From the NCBI RefSeq assembly GCF_000739555.1, contig NZ_BBJN01000021.1, positions 1 through 64,000 on the forward strand: a stretch of 64,000 nt of DNA, in the 5' to 3' direction. The DNA is from Halolamina rubra (GTDB lineage: Archaea; Halobacteriota; Halobacteria; Halobacteriales; Haloferacaceae). The position numbers were made by a program, and so were the translations under genes. The notes below the pieces were generated by a model that saw nothing but the letters and a program-made list of their open reading frames with translations, ran no database searches and was not told the DNA's origin. Positions 19,705 to 40,600 of this stretch are shown one piece after another. Positions within the stretch are counted from its first letter, which is position 1. Each line of letters begins with the position of its first letter.

Positions 19705-21414
19705 GTGCCACAGGAGTCCCATCGACGGCTCGTGCAGGAGCTCACGAGCCGGGGGTACAACGCCGAGCGCGAGGCGGTGACGCTGCTCGCCGACGCCGGC
19801 GACCCCGAACTCGCGGCCGCGGCGGCCGCCGACGCCGCCGGCGACGCGTTCGTCGTCACCGTCGAGCACGCCCGCGCCGCGCTCGAGGACGACCTGCTCG
19901 GCGGCGACCCCGGCGGCGAGGCGACTCCGGACGATCTCTCCCACCCCGAATCGACCGAGGGCGCCCCCGACCTCGCTGAGAAGGCGCCGACGGACGTGGG
20001 CGGCGAGAACGACCCCACCCCCGCCGACGAACTGCTCGACGGCAACGACGGGTCGTCGACGACCGATGACGACGACACCGGCGTTTCGACTGGAGCGAAA
20101 AATTCTGGAAATCGGTCGACAGAACCGGGTGATACAGTCGAAACAGAGGGGTCTGCGAACCCGTCACAATCGGCGTCGGCAGTCGCGGACGCGGTGGGGG
20201 GCCGCTCCCCGCCAGCCCCCGAGATCGCCAACGACGTGACGGGGCGCTCGACGGGTACCGGGCAGTACGAGGAGTTCGCGGGCACCTTTCAGGACCGCTA
20301 CGAGCGCCTCTCGGGGCTGCTCCGCGGCCGCGTGAACCACCGGCCCGCCGAGGCGATCCAGTCGATGCCCGGCGGGAGCGACGCCGAGATGATCGGCCTC
20401 GTCGACGACATCCGGTCGACGGCGTCGGGCCACTGGATCGTCGAACTGGAGGACACCACGGGGACGTTCCCCTGCCTGATCATGAAGGACCGGGCGTTCG
20501 CGCCGCTGGTCGACGACCTGCTGCTCGACGAGTGTCTCGCCGTCCAGGGGACGCTGGCCGACGACGGCGGGATCATGTTCGTCGACTCGCTCCACTTCCC
20601 CGACGTGCCCCGGACCCACAAACCGAACACGGCCGACCGCCACGTCCAGGCGGCACTGATCTCGGACGTACACGTCGGCAGCCAGGAGTTCGCGCAGGGC
20701 GCCTGGGACCGCTTCGCCGAGTGGCTCCACACGCCCGAGGCCGAGTCGGTGGAGTACCTCCTGATCGGCGGCGACATGGTCGAGGGCGTCGGCGTCTACC
20801 CGGATCAGGACGAGGAGCTCGACATCGTCGACATCTACGAGCAGTACGAGGCGTTCGCGGAGGAGCTCAAGAAGGTGCCCGGCGACATGGAGATCGTGAT
20901 GATCCCCGGGAACCACGACGCCGTCCGGCTCGCCGAGCCCCAGCCCGCCTTCACCGAGGAGCTCCGGGACATCATGAGCGCCCACGACGCCCGGTTCACC
21001 GGGAACCCGTCGACGGTCACCGTCGAGGGCGTCTCGGTGCTGATGTACCACGGCGTCTCGCTGGACGAGGTGATCGCCGAGCTCCCGGAGGAGAAAGCCA
21101 GCTACGACGAGCCCCACAAGGCGATGTACCAGCTGCTGAAGAAGCGCCACGTCGCCCCGCAGTACGGCGGTCACACGCGGGTCGCGCCCGAGGAGAAGGA
21201 CTACCTCGTGATCGACGAGGTGCCGGACGTGTTCCACACCGGCCACGTCCACAAGCTCGGCTGGGGGAAGTACCACAACGTGCTCGCGGTGAACTCGGGC
21301 TGCTGGCAGGAGCAGACCGACTTCCAGAAATCCGTCAACATCGACCCCGACTACGGCTACGCGCCGATCCTCGACCTGGACACGCTGGACATGACGGTCC
21401 GGAAGTTCGTGTAG
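19705..21414 (+). CDS. polB: DNA polymerase D small subunit DP1 (3'-5' exonuclease)
   Basis: A 569-residue proofreading subunit of PolD. The N-terminus (LVQELTSRGYNAEREAVTLL) matches haloarchaeal DP1. A disordered acidic/Ser-Thr linker spans about 75-185, an OB-fold about 225-305, and a Mre11-like calcineurin phosphoesterase domain follows with metal motifs LISDVHVGS (about 319), GGDMVEG, PGNHDAV (about 401), MYHGVS and HTGHVH (about 511). GTG 19705 is chosen from the N-terminal match and the box 30 nt upstream. The catalytic partner DP2 is 10 kb away on the same strand. Confidence 0.95.
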   Translation: MPQESHRRLVQELTSRGYNAEREAVTLLADAGDPELAAAAAADAAGDAFVVTVEHARAALEDDLLGGDPGGEATPDDLSHPESTEGAPDLAEKAPTDVGGENDPTPADELLDGNDGSSTTDDDDTGVSTGAKNSGNRSTEPGDTVETEGSANPSQSASAVADAVGGRSPPAPEIANDVTGRSTGTGQYEEFAGTFQDRYERLSGLLRGRVNHRPAEAIQSMPGGSDAEMIGLVDDIRSTASGHWIVELEDTTGTFPCLIMKDRAFAPLVDDLLLDECLAVQGTLADDGGIMFVDSLHFPDVPRTHKPNTADRHVQAALISDVHVGSQEFAQGAWDRFAEWLHTPEAESVEYLLIGGDMVEGVGVYPDQDEELDIVDIYEQYEAFAEELKKVPGDMEIVMIPGNHDAVRLAEPQPAFTEELRDIMSAHDARFTGNPSTVTVEGVSVLMYHGVSLDEVIAELPEEKASYDEPHKAMYQLLKKRHVAPQYGGHTRVAPEEKDYLVIDEVPDVFHTGHVHKLGWGKYHNVLAVNSGCWQEQTDFQKSVNIDPDYGYAPILDLDTLDMTVRKFV

Positions 21415-26879: not shown

Positions 26880-26902
26880 ACCCCCATTGTTTCAGGTGGA
26901 AC
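26880..26902 (-). repeat. ORB downstream of orc1
   Basis: The reverse complement of this segment starts GTTCCACCTGAAACAATGGG and continues GGT, a near-consensus ORB with the G-run. It lies between the convergent 3' ends of sec11 and orc1, outside the main intergenic origin. Confidence 0.75.
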
Positions 26903-26935: not shown

Positions 26936-28741
26936 TCAGTTGTCGAAGCGTGCCTGCACGAACGGCTGGGCGTTCTCGATGTCGCCGAGCCGGGAGTCCG
27001 AGAGCAGCACGTGTTCGGTCTCCTCGATCGGCACCGACAGCGAGATCTCCTTCGTGCGGCCGTAACGCCCCTTCGAGACGACGACGGCGTTGACGATCCC
27101 CAGCATGTCGAGCTCGCTGATGAGGTCGGTGACGCGCCGTTGGGTGAGCACGTCGGCGTCGATCTCCTCGCAGAGTCGCTTGTAGATGTTGAACACCTCG
27201 CCGGTGTTGATGTTGTGGACGCCGTTCTTCTCGAGCAGGATCGTCGCGAACAGGACGATCTTGCTCTGGGTCGGGAGCGTGCGGACGACCTCGACGACCC
27301 GGTCGAGTTCGATCTTGTCCTGGGCCTGCCGGACGTGCTGTTCCTCGACGGTCTCGGCCTGGCTGCGTTCCGCGAGCTCGCCCGCCGTTCTGAGGAGGTC
27401 GAGCGCGCGTCGCGCGTCGCCGTGTTCCTGCGCGGCGAACGCCGCACACAGCGGGATCACGTCGTCGGTGAGCGCGTCGTCCTTGAACGCCACGTCCGAA
27501 CGGTGCTGGAGGATGTCCCGGAGCTGGTTGGCGTCGTACGGCGGGAACACGATCTCCTCCTCGCCGAGGCTCGACTTGACCCGCGGGTCGAGGAAGTCGG
27601 TGAACTTCAGGTCGTTGGAGATCCCCATGATCGAGATGCGGGAGGTCTCGAGCTCTGAGTTCATCCGGGAGAGGTTGTACAGCGTGTCGTCGCCGGACTT
27701 CTCGACGAGCTTGTCGATCTCGTCGAGCATGATCACGACCACGCGCTCGTGGTAGTCGATGGCGTCGAAGAACTTGGTGTAGACGCGGTCGGTGGGCCAC
27801 CCGGTCATCGGTACCTCCTCCATCTCGTCGCGGTCGGCTTCGAGCTCGGCGATCTCCTCGTCGACGGCCTCGACGTCGTCGAACTCGGTGTCCGCGAGCG
27901 CGGCGTCGTCGCCGTCGGTCGCGGCCGAGCGGAGCTCGCGGAGCTCCTCGAGGCGGTCGGTGACGATCTCGCGGTTCTTCTCGATGAACTTGTTCGCGAG
28001 CTGGGCGAGCACGCGGTACTGCGTGTCGGTGATCTCGCAGTTGATGTACTCCACCTCGCAGGGCACGTCGTACTTCTGGGAGGTGGACTCGAGCTCCTGG
28101 CTCACGAACTTCGCGCTCGCGGTCTTCCCGGTCCCCGTCTTCCCGTAGATGAGGATGTTCGACGGCGTGTCCCCGCGCAGCGCGGAGACCAGGATCGTCG
28201 CCATCTGGTTGATCTGGTCCGTCCGGTGAGGGAGCTCGTGGGGCGTGTAGGAGGGCCGGAGCACCTCCTTGTTGCTGAAGATCGGCTCGCCCGCCATCAG
28301 GTCGTCGAACAGCCCCTGGCTGTCGCCGTCGTCCTCGAGCATCCGGTCGATGTCGACGCCGCCGGTGTCGAGGTCGACCGAGCTGTCGACGCTGTCGATC
28401 GAGCCGTCGGTCACGGCGTCGCTCCCGGTGTCGAGAACCGAGGCGGGATCCGTCCCGTCGCCAGTTCCCTCCTCCACGTTCTCGCCGCTGTCGGTCGTTT
28501 CCGTCGCCGACGGATCCGCGGTTGGGTCCGTGCCGTCGTCGAGGTTAGTCCCGCTGTCCCCGTCCGTCTCGCTGTCGGCGTCGATCTCGTCGGTCGGTTC
28601 GCTGTCCGCGCCGTCCCCGGGCGTGGCGTCCGCGTCCTCGGCCCCGGTGTCGTCGCCGCCGTCACTGCCGTCGACAGTCCGCGGGCTATCGTTCGGATCG
28701 TCCGCTTCCTCCGCCGCACCTGTGTCGTCGGTGTCGTTCAT
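26936..28741 (-). CDS. orc1: Origin-recognition initiator Orc1/Cdc6
   Basis: A 601-residue initiator that binds ORB sites and loads the MCM helicase. An acidic, Ser/Thr-rich disordered N-terminus occupies about 1-150. The AAA+ core follows, with Walker A IYGKTGTGKTASAKF (about 200), an acidic helical insert, Walker B VVIMLDEIDKLVE (about 334), sensor 1 ISIMGISNDLKF and sensor 2 HGDARRALDLL. A C-terminal winged-helix domain ends QRRVTDLISELDMLG...GRTKEISLS. ATG 28741 begins MNDTDDTGAAEE; upstream codons run into an ORB. It is divergent from the oap cluster across oriC, the usual haloarchaeal oriC1 arrangement. Confidence 0.95.
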   Translation of the reverse strand: MNDTDDTGAAEEADDPNDSPRTVDGSDGGDDTGAEDADATPGDGADSEPTDEIDADSETDGDSGTNLDDGTDPTADPSATETTDSGENVEEGTGDGTDPASVLDTGSDAVTDGSIDSVDSSVDLDTGGVDIDRMLEDDGDSQGLFDDLMAGEPIFSNKEVLRPSYTPHELPHRTDQINQMATILVSALRGDTPSNILIYGKTGTGKTASAKFVSQELESTSQKYDVPCEVEYINCEITDTQYRVLAQLANKFIEKNREIVTDRLEELRELRSAATDGDDAALADTEFDDVEAVDEEIAELEADRDEMEEVPMTGWPTDRVYTKFFDAIDYHERVVVIMLDEIDKLVEKSGDDTLYNLSRMNSELETSRISIMGISNDLKFTDFLDPRVKSSLGEEEIVFPPYDANQLRDILQHRSDVAFKDDALTDDVIPLCAAFAAQEHGDARRALDLLRTAGELAERSQAETVEEQHVRQAQDKIELDRVVEVVRTLPTQSKIVLFATILLEKNGVHNINTGEVFNIYKRLCEEIDADVLTQRRVTDLISELDMLGIVNAVVVSKGRYGRTKEISLSVPIEETEHVLLSDSRLGDIENAQPFVQARFDN

Positions 28742-28747
28742 TTGGTT

Positions 28748-28769
28748 ACCCCTGCGTTTCGAGTGGAAA
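28748..28769 (-). repeat. ORB 1 of oriC
   Basis: The segment starting acccctgcgtttcgagtgga is a reverse-complement ORB with the TCCACTCGAAAC core and GGGGT tail. It ends 7 bp from the orc1 start codon, suggesting Orc1 autoregulation as well as origin recognition. Confidence 0.85.
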
Positions 28770-28968
28770 ACGGCGCCCGGAACCGGTATATCCGCCGTGA
28801 ACACGCCTGCAGGACGCGATTCGTCGCGGCGGTCTCCGAACTGCCGTCCAGTTGATGCACTCGAACCAAATGAATAGGGGTACCAAAAACCTGTCCCTGT
28901 TGACGCGGCGAGTCGCAAGTGAACGGGAAATCGGCACAGTCACGGAACCTGTTCGGTAGGACCCTCCT

Positions 28969-28988
28969 ACCCCACCGTTTCGGGTGGA
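28969..28988 (-). repeat. ORB 2 of oriC
   Basis: The 20-mer accccaccgtttcgggtgga is a reverse-complement ORB (TCCACCCGAAACGGTGGGGT). It is in the same orientation as ORB 1 and 221 bp from it. Confidence 0.75.
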
Positions 28989-29191
28989 TCGCGTCGTCGA
29001 AGCCGTCACCGAAGGGCTGGCTGGAGCTCGTCGACGGAGCCCAGAGATTCCCTCGGTGTCCCCCAGTTCGCACAGAGCTGAAACGGGGGTCGCGACCGAA
29101 CTTCGCGGCGCCGACGATGCGTCGACGCCAACTCGCGGCGATCGCGTTCGAGGCCGTCGACGACCCGGCTCTCGTTCGAGCAGTGTGGACG

Positions 29192-29212
29192 GTCGACCTG
29201 AAACGACGGGGA
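29192..29212 (+). repeat. ORB 3 of oriC
   Basis: The core gacctgaaacgacgggga matches the ORB in plus orientation with CCTGAAAC and a short G run. It forms an inverted pair with the next ORB at 29227. Confidence 0.6.
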
Positions 29213-29226
29213 GGTCGAACCCCCCC

Positions 29227-29248
29227 ACCCCTTCGTTTCCAGTGGAAC
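29227..29248 (-). repeat. ORB 4 of oriC, best match
   Basis: The sequence starting accccttcgtttccagtgga is an exact reverse complement of the archaeal ORB core TCCACTGGAAACGAAGGGGT. This is the strongest ORB in the window and lies about 50 bp from the AT-rich element. Confidence 0.9.
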
Positions 29249-29266
29249 ACGGAAACGGACGGGGGT
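29245..29266 (+). repeat. ORB 5 of oriC, degenerate
   Basis: The core cggaaacggacgggggt has GGAAAC and a six-G tail in plus orientation but a weak left half. It overlaps ORB 4 by 4 bp, back to back. Confidence 0.5.
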
Positions 29267-29295
29267 GGGGTCGAGAAGCGGCAGGAACCGCCCTC

Positions 29296-29392
29296 TATAG
29301 AGGGGTAGTTTTACAACACACGACGATAGATTAGTCCGTACTGCAATCTCCATCTTTTCTTTATTGACGGAGTTGTTTGGTTAGTTATGGCT
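29296..29392. other. AT-rich duplex-unwinding element of oriC
   Basis: A stretch of roughly 97 bp is strikingly A/T-rich against a background near 68 percent GC, with runs such as gttttac and cttttctttattg. It is bracketed by ORB 4/5 on the left and ORB 6 on the right. This placement is characteristic of the site where Orc1 binding melts the duplex. Confidence 0.8.
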
Positions 29393-29433
29393 ACTCCCGC
29401 GAGCCGGCCTCCCCACCCCACCCTTCCGCCCGC

Positions 29434-29455
29434 TCTCCACGGGAAACGAGGGGGA
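29434..29455 (+). repeat. ORB 6 of oriC
   Basis: The core tccacgggaaacgaggggga is a plus-orientation ORB with a long G tail (the G-string). It lies about 40 bp to the right of the AT-rich element, facing ORB 4. Confidence 0.75.
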
Positions 29456-29562
29456 GGGGGTGTTCGGAGTCGGTTCCAGGAACCGACAACCGGTTCGATC
29501 GGGAGCCTCCCGGCGTGATTCGACCGGACTCGGCTTCGCGATCCCGGATCGAGCGAGCGAAC

Positions 29563-29583
29563 ACCTCTGTTTCGACTGGAAAC
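29563..29583 (-). repeat. ORB 7 of oriC
   Basis: The segment starting acctctgtttcgactggaaa has a full TTTCCAGTCGAAAC core in minus orientation but only a short C run in place of the G-string complement. It is the rightmost ORB before the oap genes. Confidence 0.65.
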
Positions 29584-29765
29584 GGTGACCCTCCCGCTCT
29601 CGGGGACCTTCGATATATCCGTTATTTGATAACTCGTCGGCCCGAACGTCGCCACGTCCGTCGACGCCGATCGCGGGCGACGACCCTGTCTGACGCCATT
29701 CTTAAGTGTATTGCCGGCCGTACTCCGAGTAACAGCCCCTTACTGCGGTGGGGCAGGAGATAAGG

Positions 29766-30407
29766 ATGGGTCTGCTCACGAGTCTGAAAGACAGCATTAC
29801 GCGGGTCACCGACGGCCTGTTCGCCTCAGAGGAGCCGAAACGGATCGGGATATACGGCCCGCCGAACGCCGGGAAGACCACGCTGGCGAACCGGATCGCC
29901 CGTGACTGGACCGGCGACGCGGTGGGCCCGGAGAGCCACATCCCCCACGAGACACGCCGTGCGCGCCGGAAGGAGGGGGTGACTATCGAGCGCGACGGGA
30001 AGGAGGTCACCATCGACATCGTCGACACCCCCGGCGTGGCGACGAAGGTCGACTACGAGGAGTTCCTCGAGCACGACATGGAGAAGGAGGACGCCGTCCG
30101 GCGCTCCCGCGAGGCGACGGAGGGCGTCGCCGAGGCGATGCACTGGCTCCGTGAGGACGTCGACGGCGTGATCTACGTGCTCGACAGCACCGACGACCCG
30201 TTCACGCAGGTGAACACGATGCTGATCGGCATCATCGAGAGCCAGGAGCTGCCGGTGCTGATCCTCGCGAACAAGATCGACAAGGAGGAGTCGGACATCC
30301 AGCGGATCGCGAACGCGTTCCCGCAGCACGAGACGATCCCACTCTCGGCGCTCGAGGGACAGAACATGGACGAAGTGTACGAGAAAATCGCGGAGTACTT
30401 CTCCTAA
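29766..30407 (+). CDS. oapA: Era-like GTPase, origin-associated protein OapA
   Basis: A 213-residue small GTPase. G1 is GPPNAGKTTLANR (about 31-43), G3 is VDTPG (about 85-89) and G4 is NKID (about 163-166), with an Era-like core and no KH domain. Haloarchaea conserve this gene directly beside oriC1 as the first of three origin-associated genes; published work on Haloarcula hispanica uses the name OapA, cited here from memory. Start ATG 29766 begins MGLLTSLKDSITRVTDGLF; an ATG 18 bp upstream is possible but less likely. oapB starts 3 bp after its stop. Confidence 0.9.
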   Translation: MGLLTSLKDSITRVTDGLFASEEPKRIGIYGPPNAGKTTLANRIARDWTGDAVGPESHIPHETRRARRKEGVTIERDGKEVTIDIVDTPGVATKVDYEEFLEHDMEKEDAVRRSREATEGVAEAMHWLREDVDGVIYVLDSTDDPFTQVNTMLIGIIESQELPVLILANKIDKEESDIQRIANAFPQHETIPLSALEGQNMDEVYEKIAEYFS

Positions 30408-30409
30408 CA

Positions 30410-30832
30410 ATGCCCGAAGTAACCAGCGGCGACGGCGACGGAGGACCCAACGAGGGCGAGGACGGCCCCGACGACGGCGTCAGGGTCGACATGATCAGCG
30501 GCGCCCGGATGGAGGGGCTCACCAGCATGGAGAAGATCCGGCTGATCCTCGACGGGGTTCGCGAGGGGAACATCGTGATCCTCGAGGAGGGGCTCACCCC
30601 CGACGAGGAGTCGAAGCTGATCGAGGTCACGATGACCGAGATCAGCCCGGACGAGTTCAACGGGATCGAGATCGAGACCTACCCCAAGTCGAGTTCGAGC
30701 AACCCCGGGCTGTTCGACCGGCTGATGGGGAAGGAGGACACCCAGAAGCTGACGGTGATCGGGCCGGCGAACCAGATCGAGACGCTGCACAAGGACGAGA
30801 ACCTCATCAGCACCCTCGTCTCGCGCAAGTAG
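30410..30832 (+). CDS. oapB: DUF2073 family protein, OapB
   Basis: A 140-residue protein of the euryarchaeal DUF2073 family. After an acidic N-terminus (about 1-25) the conserved core reads VDMISGARMEGLTSMEKIRL, NIVILEEGLTPDEESKLIE and KLTVIGPANQIETLHKDENLI. It always lies between the Era-like GTPase and the zinc-ribbon gene in haloarchaea. I recall that an archaeal homologue was later characterised as an RNA-binding protein partnering a K-turn RNA, so the link to replication may be indirect; treat that as recollection. Confidence 0.9.
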   Translation: MPEVTSGDGDGGPNEGEDGPDDGVRVDMISGARMEGLTSMEKIRLILDGVREGNIVILEEGLTPDEESKLIEVTMTEISPDEFNGIEIETYPKSSSSNPGLFDRLMGKEDTQKLTVIGPANQIETLHKDENLISTLVSRK

Positions 30833-30836
30833 GCCC

Positions 30837-31841
30837 GTGCCCCACGAGTGTACCACCTGCGGCCGGCAGTTCGACGACGGCTCCAAGGAGATGCTCTCGG
30901 GCTGTCCGAACTGCGGCGGGAACAAGTTCCAGTTCCAGCCGCCCGGCCGGAGCGCCGAACCCGAGGAGCCGGCCGGAGCGACTGACCCCGACGACTCGGT
31001 CACGAGCTCCCAGCCCTCGACCGACAGCGCGCCGTCGACCGATACCGGGCCGTCGACGCCGGATCCGACCGACACCGCGCCGTCGACGCCGGATCCGACC
31101 GACTCCGGGCCGTCGACGCCGGATCCGACCGACACGGCGTCGACGACCGAGTCAGCTGACCCCCTGTCGGATCCCGGCACGCAGGGCGATCTCGACCTCC
31201 CGGACGACACCGCACACGCGGCCGAGACCGCAGGTGACGACACCGGGGGCGCCGTCGACGCCGACACCCCGAGCGCCGCCGACGCCGACACGGCTCGTAC
31301 GGAGTCGGCCGAGGAACGGTACCGAGACGCCGAGATCGACGAGTTCCGGGACGCCGAGGTCGCCGACGACACCGACGCGGAGAACAGCGCCCAGCGGGAC
31401 GCGCGCTCGGCGGCGGTCAGCCCCGAGGAGATCGAGGACGCCCGCAAGCAGGTGGCCGACACCGAGACCGAGGCGGCGCCGGACGACGGCAGCCGCGGCC
31501 GCGGGACGCCACAGGGCCCCCCGGCGGAGACGCCCGCCGGTGCGGACCCCGAGGAGTTCGACCTCTCGGACACGGTCGGGGACGACGACCCGGTCGAGAA
31601 ACAGCCCGTCGCGGGCTCGGCGCCGGAGCGCGAGGAGCCGGTCGCCGACGACGACGCCGACCTGTCGGCGCTCCGGGAGGAGCTGAACCAGCAGTTCGAG
31701 AGCATCAAGATCACCGCGCCCGGCCAGTACGAACTCAACCTCATGGAGCTGTACGACCGGAAGGAGTACATCATCTCGCTCCAGGAGGACGGCCGGTACG
31801 TGATCGAGATGGCCGACGACTACGGGATCGACGAGGACTGA
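30837..31841 (+). CDS. oapC: Zinc-ribbon protein OapC
   Basis: A 334-residue protein. The N-terminal zinc ribbon has CTTC (about 4-7) and CPNC (about 23-26). A long acidic linker contains three perfect-frame ten-residue repeats of PSTPDPTD type (31051-31140) and further Asp/Glu/Ala-rich sequence. The conserved C-terminal block FESIKITAPGQYELNLMEL...EYIISLQEDGRYVIEM (about 285-330) is typical of OapC. The start is GTG 30837, 4 bp after the oapB stop. Role unknown beyond the conserved linkage to oriC1. Confidence 0.88.
   Translation: MPHECTTCGRQFDDGSKEMLSGCPNCGGNKFQFQPPGRSAEPEEPAGATDPDDSVTSSQPSTDSAPSTDTGPSTPDPTDTAPSTPDPTDSGPSTPDPTDTASTTESADPLSDPGTQGDLDLPDDTAHAAETAGDDTGGAVDADTPSAADADTARTESAEERYRDAEIDEFRDAEVADDTDAENSAQRDARSAAVSPEEIEDARKQVADTETEAAPDDGSRGRGTPQGPPAETPAGADPEEFDLSDTVGDDDPVEKQPVAGSAPEREEPVADDDADLSALREELNQQFESIKITAPGQYELNLMELYDRKEYIISLQEDGRYVIEMADDYGIDED
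31051..31140 (+). repeat. Three 30-bp in-frame repeats inside oapC
   Basis: Units begin at 31051, 31081 and 31111 with cgtcgacgccggatccgacc and encode a ten-residue PSTPDPTD repeat. Only two positions per unit vary. This is a length-variable linker, probably expanded by slippage or recombination. Confidence 0.85.
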
Positions 31842-31897: not shown

Positions 31898-31996
31898 ATG
31901 AGCACGGCGACGAAGATCGTCACCAGCACAGTCGGCCTGTCGGCGCTTCTGGCGCTCGCTCTGGTCTTCCAGATCGTCCTCTCGAGCGGCGCCTGA
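31898..31996 (+). CDS. Small single-pass membrane protein (32 aa)
   Basis: A 32-residue frame with one hydrophobic helix (about 12-28, LSALLALALVFQIVL) after a short polar start MSTATKIVTS. Its TGA overlaps the ATG of the next gene (TGATG at 31994-31998), which strongly suggests translational coupling and that it is a real gene. No family recognised. Confidence 0.6.
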   Translation: MSTATKIVTSTVGLSALLALALVFQIVLSSGA

Positions 31997-32777
31997 TGTT
32001 CGCCGAGCGAACGCTCGCCCCGCCGGTCCAGCGACTGCACCGCGAGCTCACGCCCGAGGTCCTCGTGCTCGACGTGGAGCAGGACTTCGAGACGCTCCAG
32101 CCGGCGGTCGCCGAGGAGCTGGGCCTGCTCGTCGACGCGTTCGACCCCGCCGGCTACCCCGAGTCGTGGCTGCCGGCGGACGCCCCCGCGCAGTTGACGG
32201 CGTACGCCGGCGCGCAGTTCACCATCGGCCTCCCCGGCGACGGCACGGTCGTCTGGACCCGACAGACCGAGCCGCCGACGGTGCTCGTGAAGGCCCGCGC
32301 CGAGGGAACCCCCGAAGGGTTCCGCTCGTTCCTGCTCGCGGAGGCACTGGTCGAGATCGACGAGGGCGTGCCGGAGAGCTTCCTCCCCTTCTTCGGCGAT
32401 CGCTACGCTGACCTCGACGACGCGCTAGGTCTCGGCGGCGCCGCCACCTACCAGGTCGCGATGGCGCTGTTCGAGGCCTGGGTCGGGCTCCACACCCGCG
32501 AGCGGTTCCGCGCGTGGGCGGGCGAGCACGACGAGCTCCACGCGGCGTGGGAGGACGCCGGCGACCGCCTCGTCGGCCGGATCGAGGGGCTGCCGGGCGA
32601 GGTCGCCCGCGGCGAGACGACGTTCCCCGCCGCGACCGAACTGGCGTGTTCGGCGGTCAAACACGGCCTCGACCTGCCGGCGCCGTTCGCGGCGCTGGAC
32701 ACGCTGGCGTACCGCGACCACGGGGCGGAGTACGCGGTGCAGTGGGCCGAGAAGACGGTGACGCGCTGGCGGAGTAG
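31996..32777 (+). pseudogene. Conserved haloarchaeal protein, with one-base frameshift near its end
   Basis: About 260 residues, mostly acidic and helical, beginning MFAERTLAPPVQRLHRELTP and containing FTIGLPGDGTVVWTRQTEPP. I recognise it only as a conserved haloarchaeal family near oriC1 (possibly DUF7089). The frame as read runs on into arginine-rich nonsense after AEKTV. If one C is restored between 32759 and 32760 (gacggt-gacgcg), the protein ends naturally as EKTVDALAE and TAG at 32775-32777. I therefore place the true end there. It is coupled to the 32-aa gene upstream. Confidence 0.7.
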
Positions 32778-33063
32778 CCCGGGCGTCGACCCCGGCTACA
32801 CACCGTCCAGCAGCTGCTCGACGACGGCGTCGACGCAGGCTACACACCGTCCAGCGCCCGTTCGACGGCGGCGTCGACGCCTCAGCGGGGTTCCACCCTT
32901 TTCGACTGGTTCGTCCCTTTCGACTGGAGGCAGCGTTTCGACTGCACGAACCGTTTCGCCTGGAGATCGCTCTTCGTCTGGAACGAGCGCTTCACGTCCA
33001 CAAACGACCCCGGACGCTTCAGGTGGAACAGGGGGCAGCGGGACAGCCGGTGCGTCGCGGCCC
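32778..33063. repeat. Tandem-repeat-rich gap: two 44-bp units, then an 18-bp periodic array
   Basis: Two 44-bp units start at 32795 and 32839 (shared start ggctacacaccgtccagc). A second array follows with ttcgactgg-like motifs at 32901, 32919, 32937, 32955, 32973 and 32991, each exactly 18 bp apart, and a last one at 33018. The 18-bp unit core tttcgactgg is also the core of the ORBs, and 33015-33036 reads like a degraded ORB with a five-G tail. No protein frame across the patch looks real. It separates the convergent ends of the genes at 31996 and 33064. Confidence 0.8.
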
Positions 33064-33648
33064 CTACTCGGTGGCTTCGTAGCTCACGTTGCCGTCGTCG
33101 TCGAGGGTGACGGTGCCGTCGAACAGCTCGGCGAACGCGGCGACGGTGTCGTCGTCGTGGACCTCGCTGGAGAGGTGGAACAGGCAGACGGCGTCGTGTT
33201 CGCGCACGAGTTCGATCAGTCGCTCGGCGGCCTCGAGCGCGGCGGCCTCGTCGCCGTAGTAGGCGAGTTCGGAGAGCGAGTCGAGCGTGATCCGGCGGCG
33301 GCCCTCGGTTGTTTCGAGGAACGAGGCCACGTCCTCGACGATCCCCTCCACGTCGTCCGGACCGGCGGCGTAGTGGATGTTCGGCGCCGAGCGCCGGGAG
33401 TAGCCGCGTTCGATCGAGAGCGTGTCGAGGATCACCGCGCGGGACTCGTCGACCTCGTAGTAGTCGAGCTTCTGCTCGACCTCCCGGGCGGTGGTGCGGG
33501 TGGAGATCACCAGGAAGCGGTCGGTGTCGGCGCTGAGGAAGTCCGTGTCGACGCGGTCGGTCTCCCCGATACTCGGGTGGAGAAGCAGCAGGGCGGTGCC
33601 GGCCGGGACGGTTTCGGGTGCGCCGTCGATGGCGAGGTCGTACTCCAT
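33064..33648 (-). CDS. RecA/KaiC-fold protein without Walker A
   Basis: A 194-residue protein beginning MEYDLAIDGAPETVPAGTAL. The order of strands (LLLLHPSIG, DRFLVISTRTTAREV, AVILDTLSIERGY, RRRITLDSLSELAYYGDEAAA, AVCLFHLSSEVHDDD) resembles the haloarchaeal KaiC/RecA-like family that has lost the P-loop (often seen in HTR-like or DUF7090-type proteins). The SAPNIHYAAGPDDVEGIVEDV segment is probably a conserved loop. No nucleotide-binding motif is visible, so catalytic activity is doubtful. Function unknown. Confidence 0.65.
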   Translation of the reverse strand: MEYDLAIDGAPETVPAGTALLLLHPSIGETDRVDTDFLSADTDRFLVISTRTTAREVEQKLDYYEVDESRAVILDTLSIERGYSRRSAPNIHYAAGPDDVEGIVEDVASFLETTEGRRRITLDSLSELAYYGDEAAALEAAERLIELVREHDAVCLFHLSSEVHDDDTVAAFAELFDGTVTLDDDGNVSYEATE

Positions 33649-39700: not shown

Positions 39701-39714
39701 TCCAGCTACGGCGC

Positions 39715-39853
39715 GCGACCGCCGACGGCCTCCGTGCCGTCGGTCCGGAGCGCCATGCCGTGGCTGTGTACGGCCCCCTTTCGACACGCCCCGCGACCGT
39801 CGACGGCCTCCGTGCCGTCGGTCCGGAGCGCCATGCCGTGGCTGTGTACGGCC
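39715..39853. repeat. Tandem duplication, 61-bp copies with 78-bp period
   Basis: Copies at 39715-39775 and 39793-39853 differ by one base. Each contains the palindrome-like gacggcctccgtgccgtc and a second ctccg...cggag stem, so RNA or single-stranded DNA could form a hairpin. It follows the rhodanese stop by 14 bp and precedes the next gene by 69 bp. No protein frame through it is credible. It could be a recent slippage duplication or a REP-like element. Confidence 0.8.
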
Positions 39854-39922
39854 ACCTCCTGATGCGGGACTGCGGCCGCCGCTTCCGTGGGCTACAAGCC
39901 GCTGCTGGCCGACGTCCCGACT

Positions 39923-40562: not shown

Positions 40563-40584
40563 CTCCACTCGAAACACAGGGGTG
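40563..40584 (+). repeat. Solitary ORB-like motif
   Basis: The core tccactcgaaacacaggggt is a full plus-orientation ORB sequence, 11 kb from oriC1. It lies in the short gap between the convergent genes ending at 40543 and 40601. Confidence 0.6.
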
Positions 40585-40600
40585 TCCGGGGGTCGGACGG

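Follow-up and report, generated by a model that had tools for sequence, protein, structure and literature searches.

What is a short, strictly periodic repeat doing between two convergent genes about 3.5 kb from the replication origin oriC1 of Halolamina rubra? The window, i.e. the whole stretch of 64,000 nucleotides analyzed here, holds seven copies of a motif in this gap, for which the first-pass annotation had offered three readings, an accessory Orc1 array, a remnant of an old origin or an unrelated six-codon repeat; the first of these is the best supported by the comparisons of sequence presented below.

Layout and genomic setting of the array

The gap is non-coding, and the gene order is orc1 (minus strand), oriC1, oapA-oapB-oapC, DUF7089 (plus), array, DUF7090 (minus); beyond orc1, at the start of this order, lies a gene that we take to be signal-peptidase-like. 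The features are as follows.

26939..28742, minus strand: orc1/cdc6 of oriC1 (domains Cdc6_C and Cdc6_lid), probably the cognate initiator gene
28743..29747, no strand: oriC1 intergenic region with five oriC1-type ORBs (28749-, 28970-, 29228-, 29435+, 29562-)
29290-29380: AT-rich stretch within the oriC1 region
29748..31841, plus strand: oapA (GTPase), oapB (PF09846) and oapC (PF09845)
31996..32779, plus strand: DUF7089 gene, left neighbor of the array, frameshifted at its 3' end in this genome
32895..33036, minus strand (polarity as an ORB read 5' to 3'): tandem half-ORB array, seven copies
33064..33642, minus strand: DUF7090 gene, right neighbor of the array, convergent

The probable start codon of orc1 is at MNDTDDTG, and the ORB at 28749-28768, a few bases upstream of it, is a possible candidate for an autoregulation site of the gene. 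The 3' end of DUF7089 (32755-32780) is frameshifted relative to six congeners, which reflects either a genuine mutation or an error in sequencing; with the stop codon lost, the frame runs on and is open through the array. A 44-bp tandem repeat with GGCTACACACCGTCCAGC occupies 32782-32880 in the array's own gap, and similar text is found near 40600. Two further repeats in the window are a 31-bp tandem repeat (GCTGTACATCGATCGATGCTC...; 1-113) that opens the contig and has the look of an artifact or of an assembly end, and a near-identical 78-bp tandem duplication (39714-39857).

Read with ORB polarity, the array units lie on the minus strand as CAGTCGAAACG(G); units 1 to 6 below were delimited from the sequence.

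32896..32909, minus strand: unit 1, CCAGTCGAAAAGGG
32914..32929, minus strand: unit 2, CTCCAGTCGAAAGGGA
32933..32947, minus strand: unit 3, GTGCAGTCGAAACGC
32951..32965, minus strand: unit 4, CTCCAGGCGAAACGG
32969..32983, minus strand: unit 5, TTCCAGACGAAGAGC, with the TTCCA half retained
32987..33001, minus strand: unit 6, degenerate, plus-strand core CTTCACGT
33008..33028, minus strand: distal ORB-like element, TTCCACCTGAAGCGTCCGGGG, with dyad core and GGGG

Six TTTCGACT-like cores start at an exact pitch of 18 bp (32900, 32918, 32936, 32954, 32972 and 32990), and a seventh starts at 33017, 27 bp past the sixth. The pattern TTTCGACTN10TTTCGACT (up to 3 mismatches) was matched six times in the 64-kb window against 0.27 matches expected, and none of the shuffles of the window attained six. 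An 18-bp period was also called by TRF at 32918-32965, and autocorrelation of the gap, which uses no motif input, has its maximum at lag 18 in this genome. The core positions, the shuffles, TRF and the autocorrelation thus confirm the periodic array, with its seventh copy 27 bp on, as it was first described.

Conservation in and outside Halolamina

Conservation in close relatives, which the first-pass annotation had put forward as one test of its proposal, was found throughout the genus: the array is kept in all seven Halolamina genomes, in the same DUF7089/DUF7090 gap and in the same orientation, with about 6-16 copies. The top autocorrelation lag is 18, 19, 27 or 36 in each genome, and core pairs at 18/19 bp exceed those in dinucleotide shuffles in every one (p<=0.0005). 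The distal architecture, 18 bp and then 27 bp, and the orientation are common to most of the seven species; unit 3, the TTTCGACTGCACGAACCG unit, is recognizable with its spacer in all seven, and 19-bp core spacings occur in two genomes (G003 and G004).

Among the 55 internal units of the seven genomes, aligned by eye and in register, the TC of two core columns never varies (55/55), and the core is strongly conserved while the spacers are near background. Cores kept over diverged spacers are unlike the outcome of recent slippage alone. Genome G004 carries block duplications within the array (TTTCCACTGCACTCTCC and TTTCGACTCTA.CATCCG), so the copy number turns over. No second array was found in any of the seven genomes by a TTTCGACT-N10-TTTCGACT pattern search, and this restriction to one array per genome rules out a dispersed repeat family.

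In other genera for which both neighboring genes were found, the gap measures 2-198 bp and holds no comparable repeat. A loose three-unit pattern (TTTCNNNT) matched 64 of 392 haloarchaeal genomes, mostly in simple coding repeats with near-identical spacers; in eight cases outside Halolamina no orc1-like gene was found nearby with one Orc1 query, in a search that was not exhaustive. No counterpart of the array was found among the TTTCNNNT matches outside Halolamina in this non-exhaustive search of the 392 genomes. Since it is absent outside the genus, the array is dispensable for oriC1 in general.

Relation to the ORBs of oriC1

The oriC1 regions of the seven Halolamina genomes contain 32 ORB matches (consensus TTTCCACTCGAAACGGAGGGGTGG), and the array unit reads GTGCAGTCGAAACGG on the minus strand. 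The array-unit profile matches these 32 ORBs above all column permutations (0/5,000), relative to a null of permuted array columns only, in which general GC-rich motif space is not modeled. The two profiles agree best at GAAA and the A of TCCA, positions conserved in unit and ORB alike, and the core positions of the haloarchaeal oriC1 ORB, the Orc1/Cdc6 site (GTTTCNNNTGGA / TCCANNNGAAAC), are common to the array. The oriC1 site at 29569 reads GTTTCGACTGGAA, identical to the array core; the exact GTTTCGACTGGAA occurs 10 times in the seven genomes, never more than about 13 kb from the array. The core identity, the profile match and the conservation at a single locus bear out the resemblance to the oriC1 ORB core that had been noticed at first reading.

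An ORB+GGGG pattern, built from the oriC1 sites, matches the array in five of the seven genomes (at the distal element in four of them and, in G004, at an internal unit); its remaining matches lie mostly within about 35 kb of oriC1, and a reversed control pattern gave two matches in about 21 Mb. The distal element has the layout of a dyad core and a minus-strand GGGG in 6/7 genomes, and scores as an ORB in G001, G002, G003, G005 and G006; that of H. rubra is weak, falling below the 4-bit report line on the ORB profile. Of the earlier description of the last copy as a weakened ORB with a G tail, the ORB likeness is essentially right, but the G-string that is conserved belongs to the other strand: it reads CCCC at 33008-33011 on the plus strand and is kept in congeners, and no conservation of the plus-strand AGGGGG after the last copy was seen in them.

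The dyad core TCCANNNGAAAC is carried by the distal element and a few units, and most internal units retain just its A...GAAAC half. In contrast to oriC1 ORBs, the internal units often have no TCC half, and they stand in tandem and not inverted around an AT-rich region. The halophile G-string is absent from the internal units, with the short GGGG present at the distal element alone (6/7 congeners). The internal units receive low scores against the full ORB profile and, being without the G-string, are not classed as ORBs. No oriC1-type ORBs were seen beside four other cdc6-family genes of H. rubra, where a single nearby match lies within coding sequence, and these paralogues were ruled out as partners of the array. 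The best reading of the array is that of ORB-derived tandem half-sites with one ORB-like end element, tied to oriC1; such an array would be a variant on known clusters of initiator sites.

Possible roles, and putative Orc1 sites outside oriC1

With the repeat, its conservation, its restriction to a single locus, the constraint on cores against spacers and the match to the oriC1 ORBs established, the array probably binds Orc1, and it may soak up the initiator. The explanation we put first, tentatively and at somewhat less than an even chance, is that this genus-specific half-ORB array binds the Orc1/Cdc6 of oriC1 and acts as a titration or negative-control element, similar to oriC2D. The initiator would bind the tandem half-sites head-to-tail, and Orc1 held on the array would be titrated away from oriC1 or restrain it. 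The 18-bp pitch is tight for Orc1, given its footprint size. The main argument against this explanation is that the internal units lack the G-string, which is essential for oriC1 function in Haloarcula hispanica (PMC3936714).

In oriC2D of H. hispanica, 11 ORBs in 722 bp, downstream of and next to cdc6E at oriC2, lower the activity of oriC2 in line with the number of ORBs, as shown genetically (PMC3936714). The likeness lies in elements of the initiator-binding type that cluster between genes, close to an origin and its cdc6 gene, without origin features of their own. The Halolamina array, known from sequence alone, differs in that it has seven mostly half-sites at an 18-bp pitch, is linked to oriC1 and confined to one genus, and lies beyond the oap genes, not directly downstream of cdc6. 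The mini-ORB, a shorter ORB at Sulfolobus oriC2 (named in PMC4010727 and PMC3984812), resembles the array, by description only, as a reduced version of the ORB; however, mini-ORBs sit within an origin. The uniformly oriented units at a pitch of about 18 bp also recall plasmid iterons. Iterons are clustered initiator sites and bacterial datA is a titration site for DnaA; the initiators and sequences are unrelated, and the likeness is a functional analogy only.

The suggestion of an origin or its remnant was discarded: the array reaches at most 45% AT in 60 bp and thus has no AT-rich unwinding element, all units have one orientation, and there is no inverted ORB pair.

Orc1 bound at the array might instead aid initiation, with an extended-origin accessory cluster concentrating Orc1 near oriC1. 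This draws on the same ORB-core evidence (the ORB+GGGG and profile matches), on the fixed synteny with orc1-oriC1-oap close to oriC1, and on the outlying oriC1-type ORBs around oriC1 in several genera; we regard it as unlikely in view of the missing G-strings, the lack of an AT-rich stretch (at most 45% AT in 60 bp, where oriC1 reaches 65%) and the absence of the array from other genera that share the oriC1 synteny. A selfish or neutral expansion, in which slippage in the Halolamina ancestor multiplied an ORB-like seed that now drifts without function, would account for the varying copy number, the block duplications in G004 and the degenerate units in H. rubra, but is quite unlikely where cores are conserved while spacers diverge, where all seven species retain the array, and where most share its orientation and distal architecture. 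The uniform orientation, the iteron-like pitch of 18-19 bp and the single locus near the origin would also suit another sequence-specific protein, e.g. a segregation or nucleoid-organizing factor using the array as centromere-like iterons, with the ORB likeness due to descent or convergence; we consider this decidedly unlikely, as the conserved columns of the unit are those of the ORB (A of TCCA, GAAA), the distal element has the ORB+GGGG layout, and no candidate partner protein was found. Finally, a coding repeat (18 bp being six codons, in a frame open in H. rubra since DUF7089 lost its stop), as also proposed at first, is excluded by the 19-bp spacings of G003 and G004, which break any frame, and a structured RNA by folding that does not surpass that of shuffled sequence (z -1.4 and +0.6); with the U-tract of a terminator of the convergent genes absent as well, this group of explanations is very improbable.

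Outlying oriC1-type ORBs surround oriC1. Solitary sites lie at 182-201, 26882-26901 and 40563-40582, and several congeners likewise have sites about 9-12 and 24-34 kb away from oriC1. An inverted pair, 20076(-)/20133(+), spans 20076-20151 with its G-strings outward (57 bp start to start), within a gene that, named from its sequence, we take to encode the PolD small subunit (DP1). Of 392 haloarchaeal genomes, 243 match an exact-spacing pattern of this pair (<=3/26 mismatches); they represent 62 of 95 genera, and none of the 392 matches a reversed control. Being palindromic, the pattern registers every pair once per strand.

Thirty DP1 genes were chosen by protein only, from the genomes whose DP1 matches ranked highest and not at random. 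In every one of them a TCCANNNGAAAC-type core (<=1 mismatch) lies in the region that precedes the catalytic part, and 20 of the 30 have a core pair, with a core spacing of 47 or 50 bp. The protein motif around the cores (VSTG...PVETEG) is also conserved; when synonymous codons were redrawn from the same gene, 2.5 linker cores were expected in the 30 genes against 52 seen, and since this redrawing keeps the amino acids fixed, the excess lies in the DNA sequence itself. No published report of the DP1 pair was found in a literature search, and it may still be known. The DP1-internal ORBs could connect initiator occupancy with the gene of the replicative polymerase.

Returning to the array as an element that holds the initiator, a broader and rather doubtful proposal is that Halolamina evolved a dedicated array of tandem half-ORBs, with Orc1 head-to-tail, as part of a wider layer of putative Orc1 sites outside oriC1 that includes the DP1 pair across haloarchaea. 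The restraint of oriC1, the ancestral archaeal origin, is poorly understood, and the demonstrated titration-type region of haloarchaea serves oriC2; a half-ORB array kept at a single locus across the genus is a small, deletable candidate for the restraint of oriC1.
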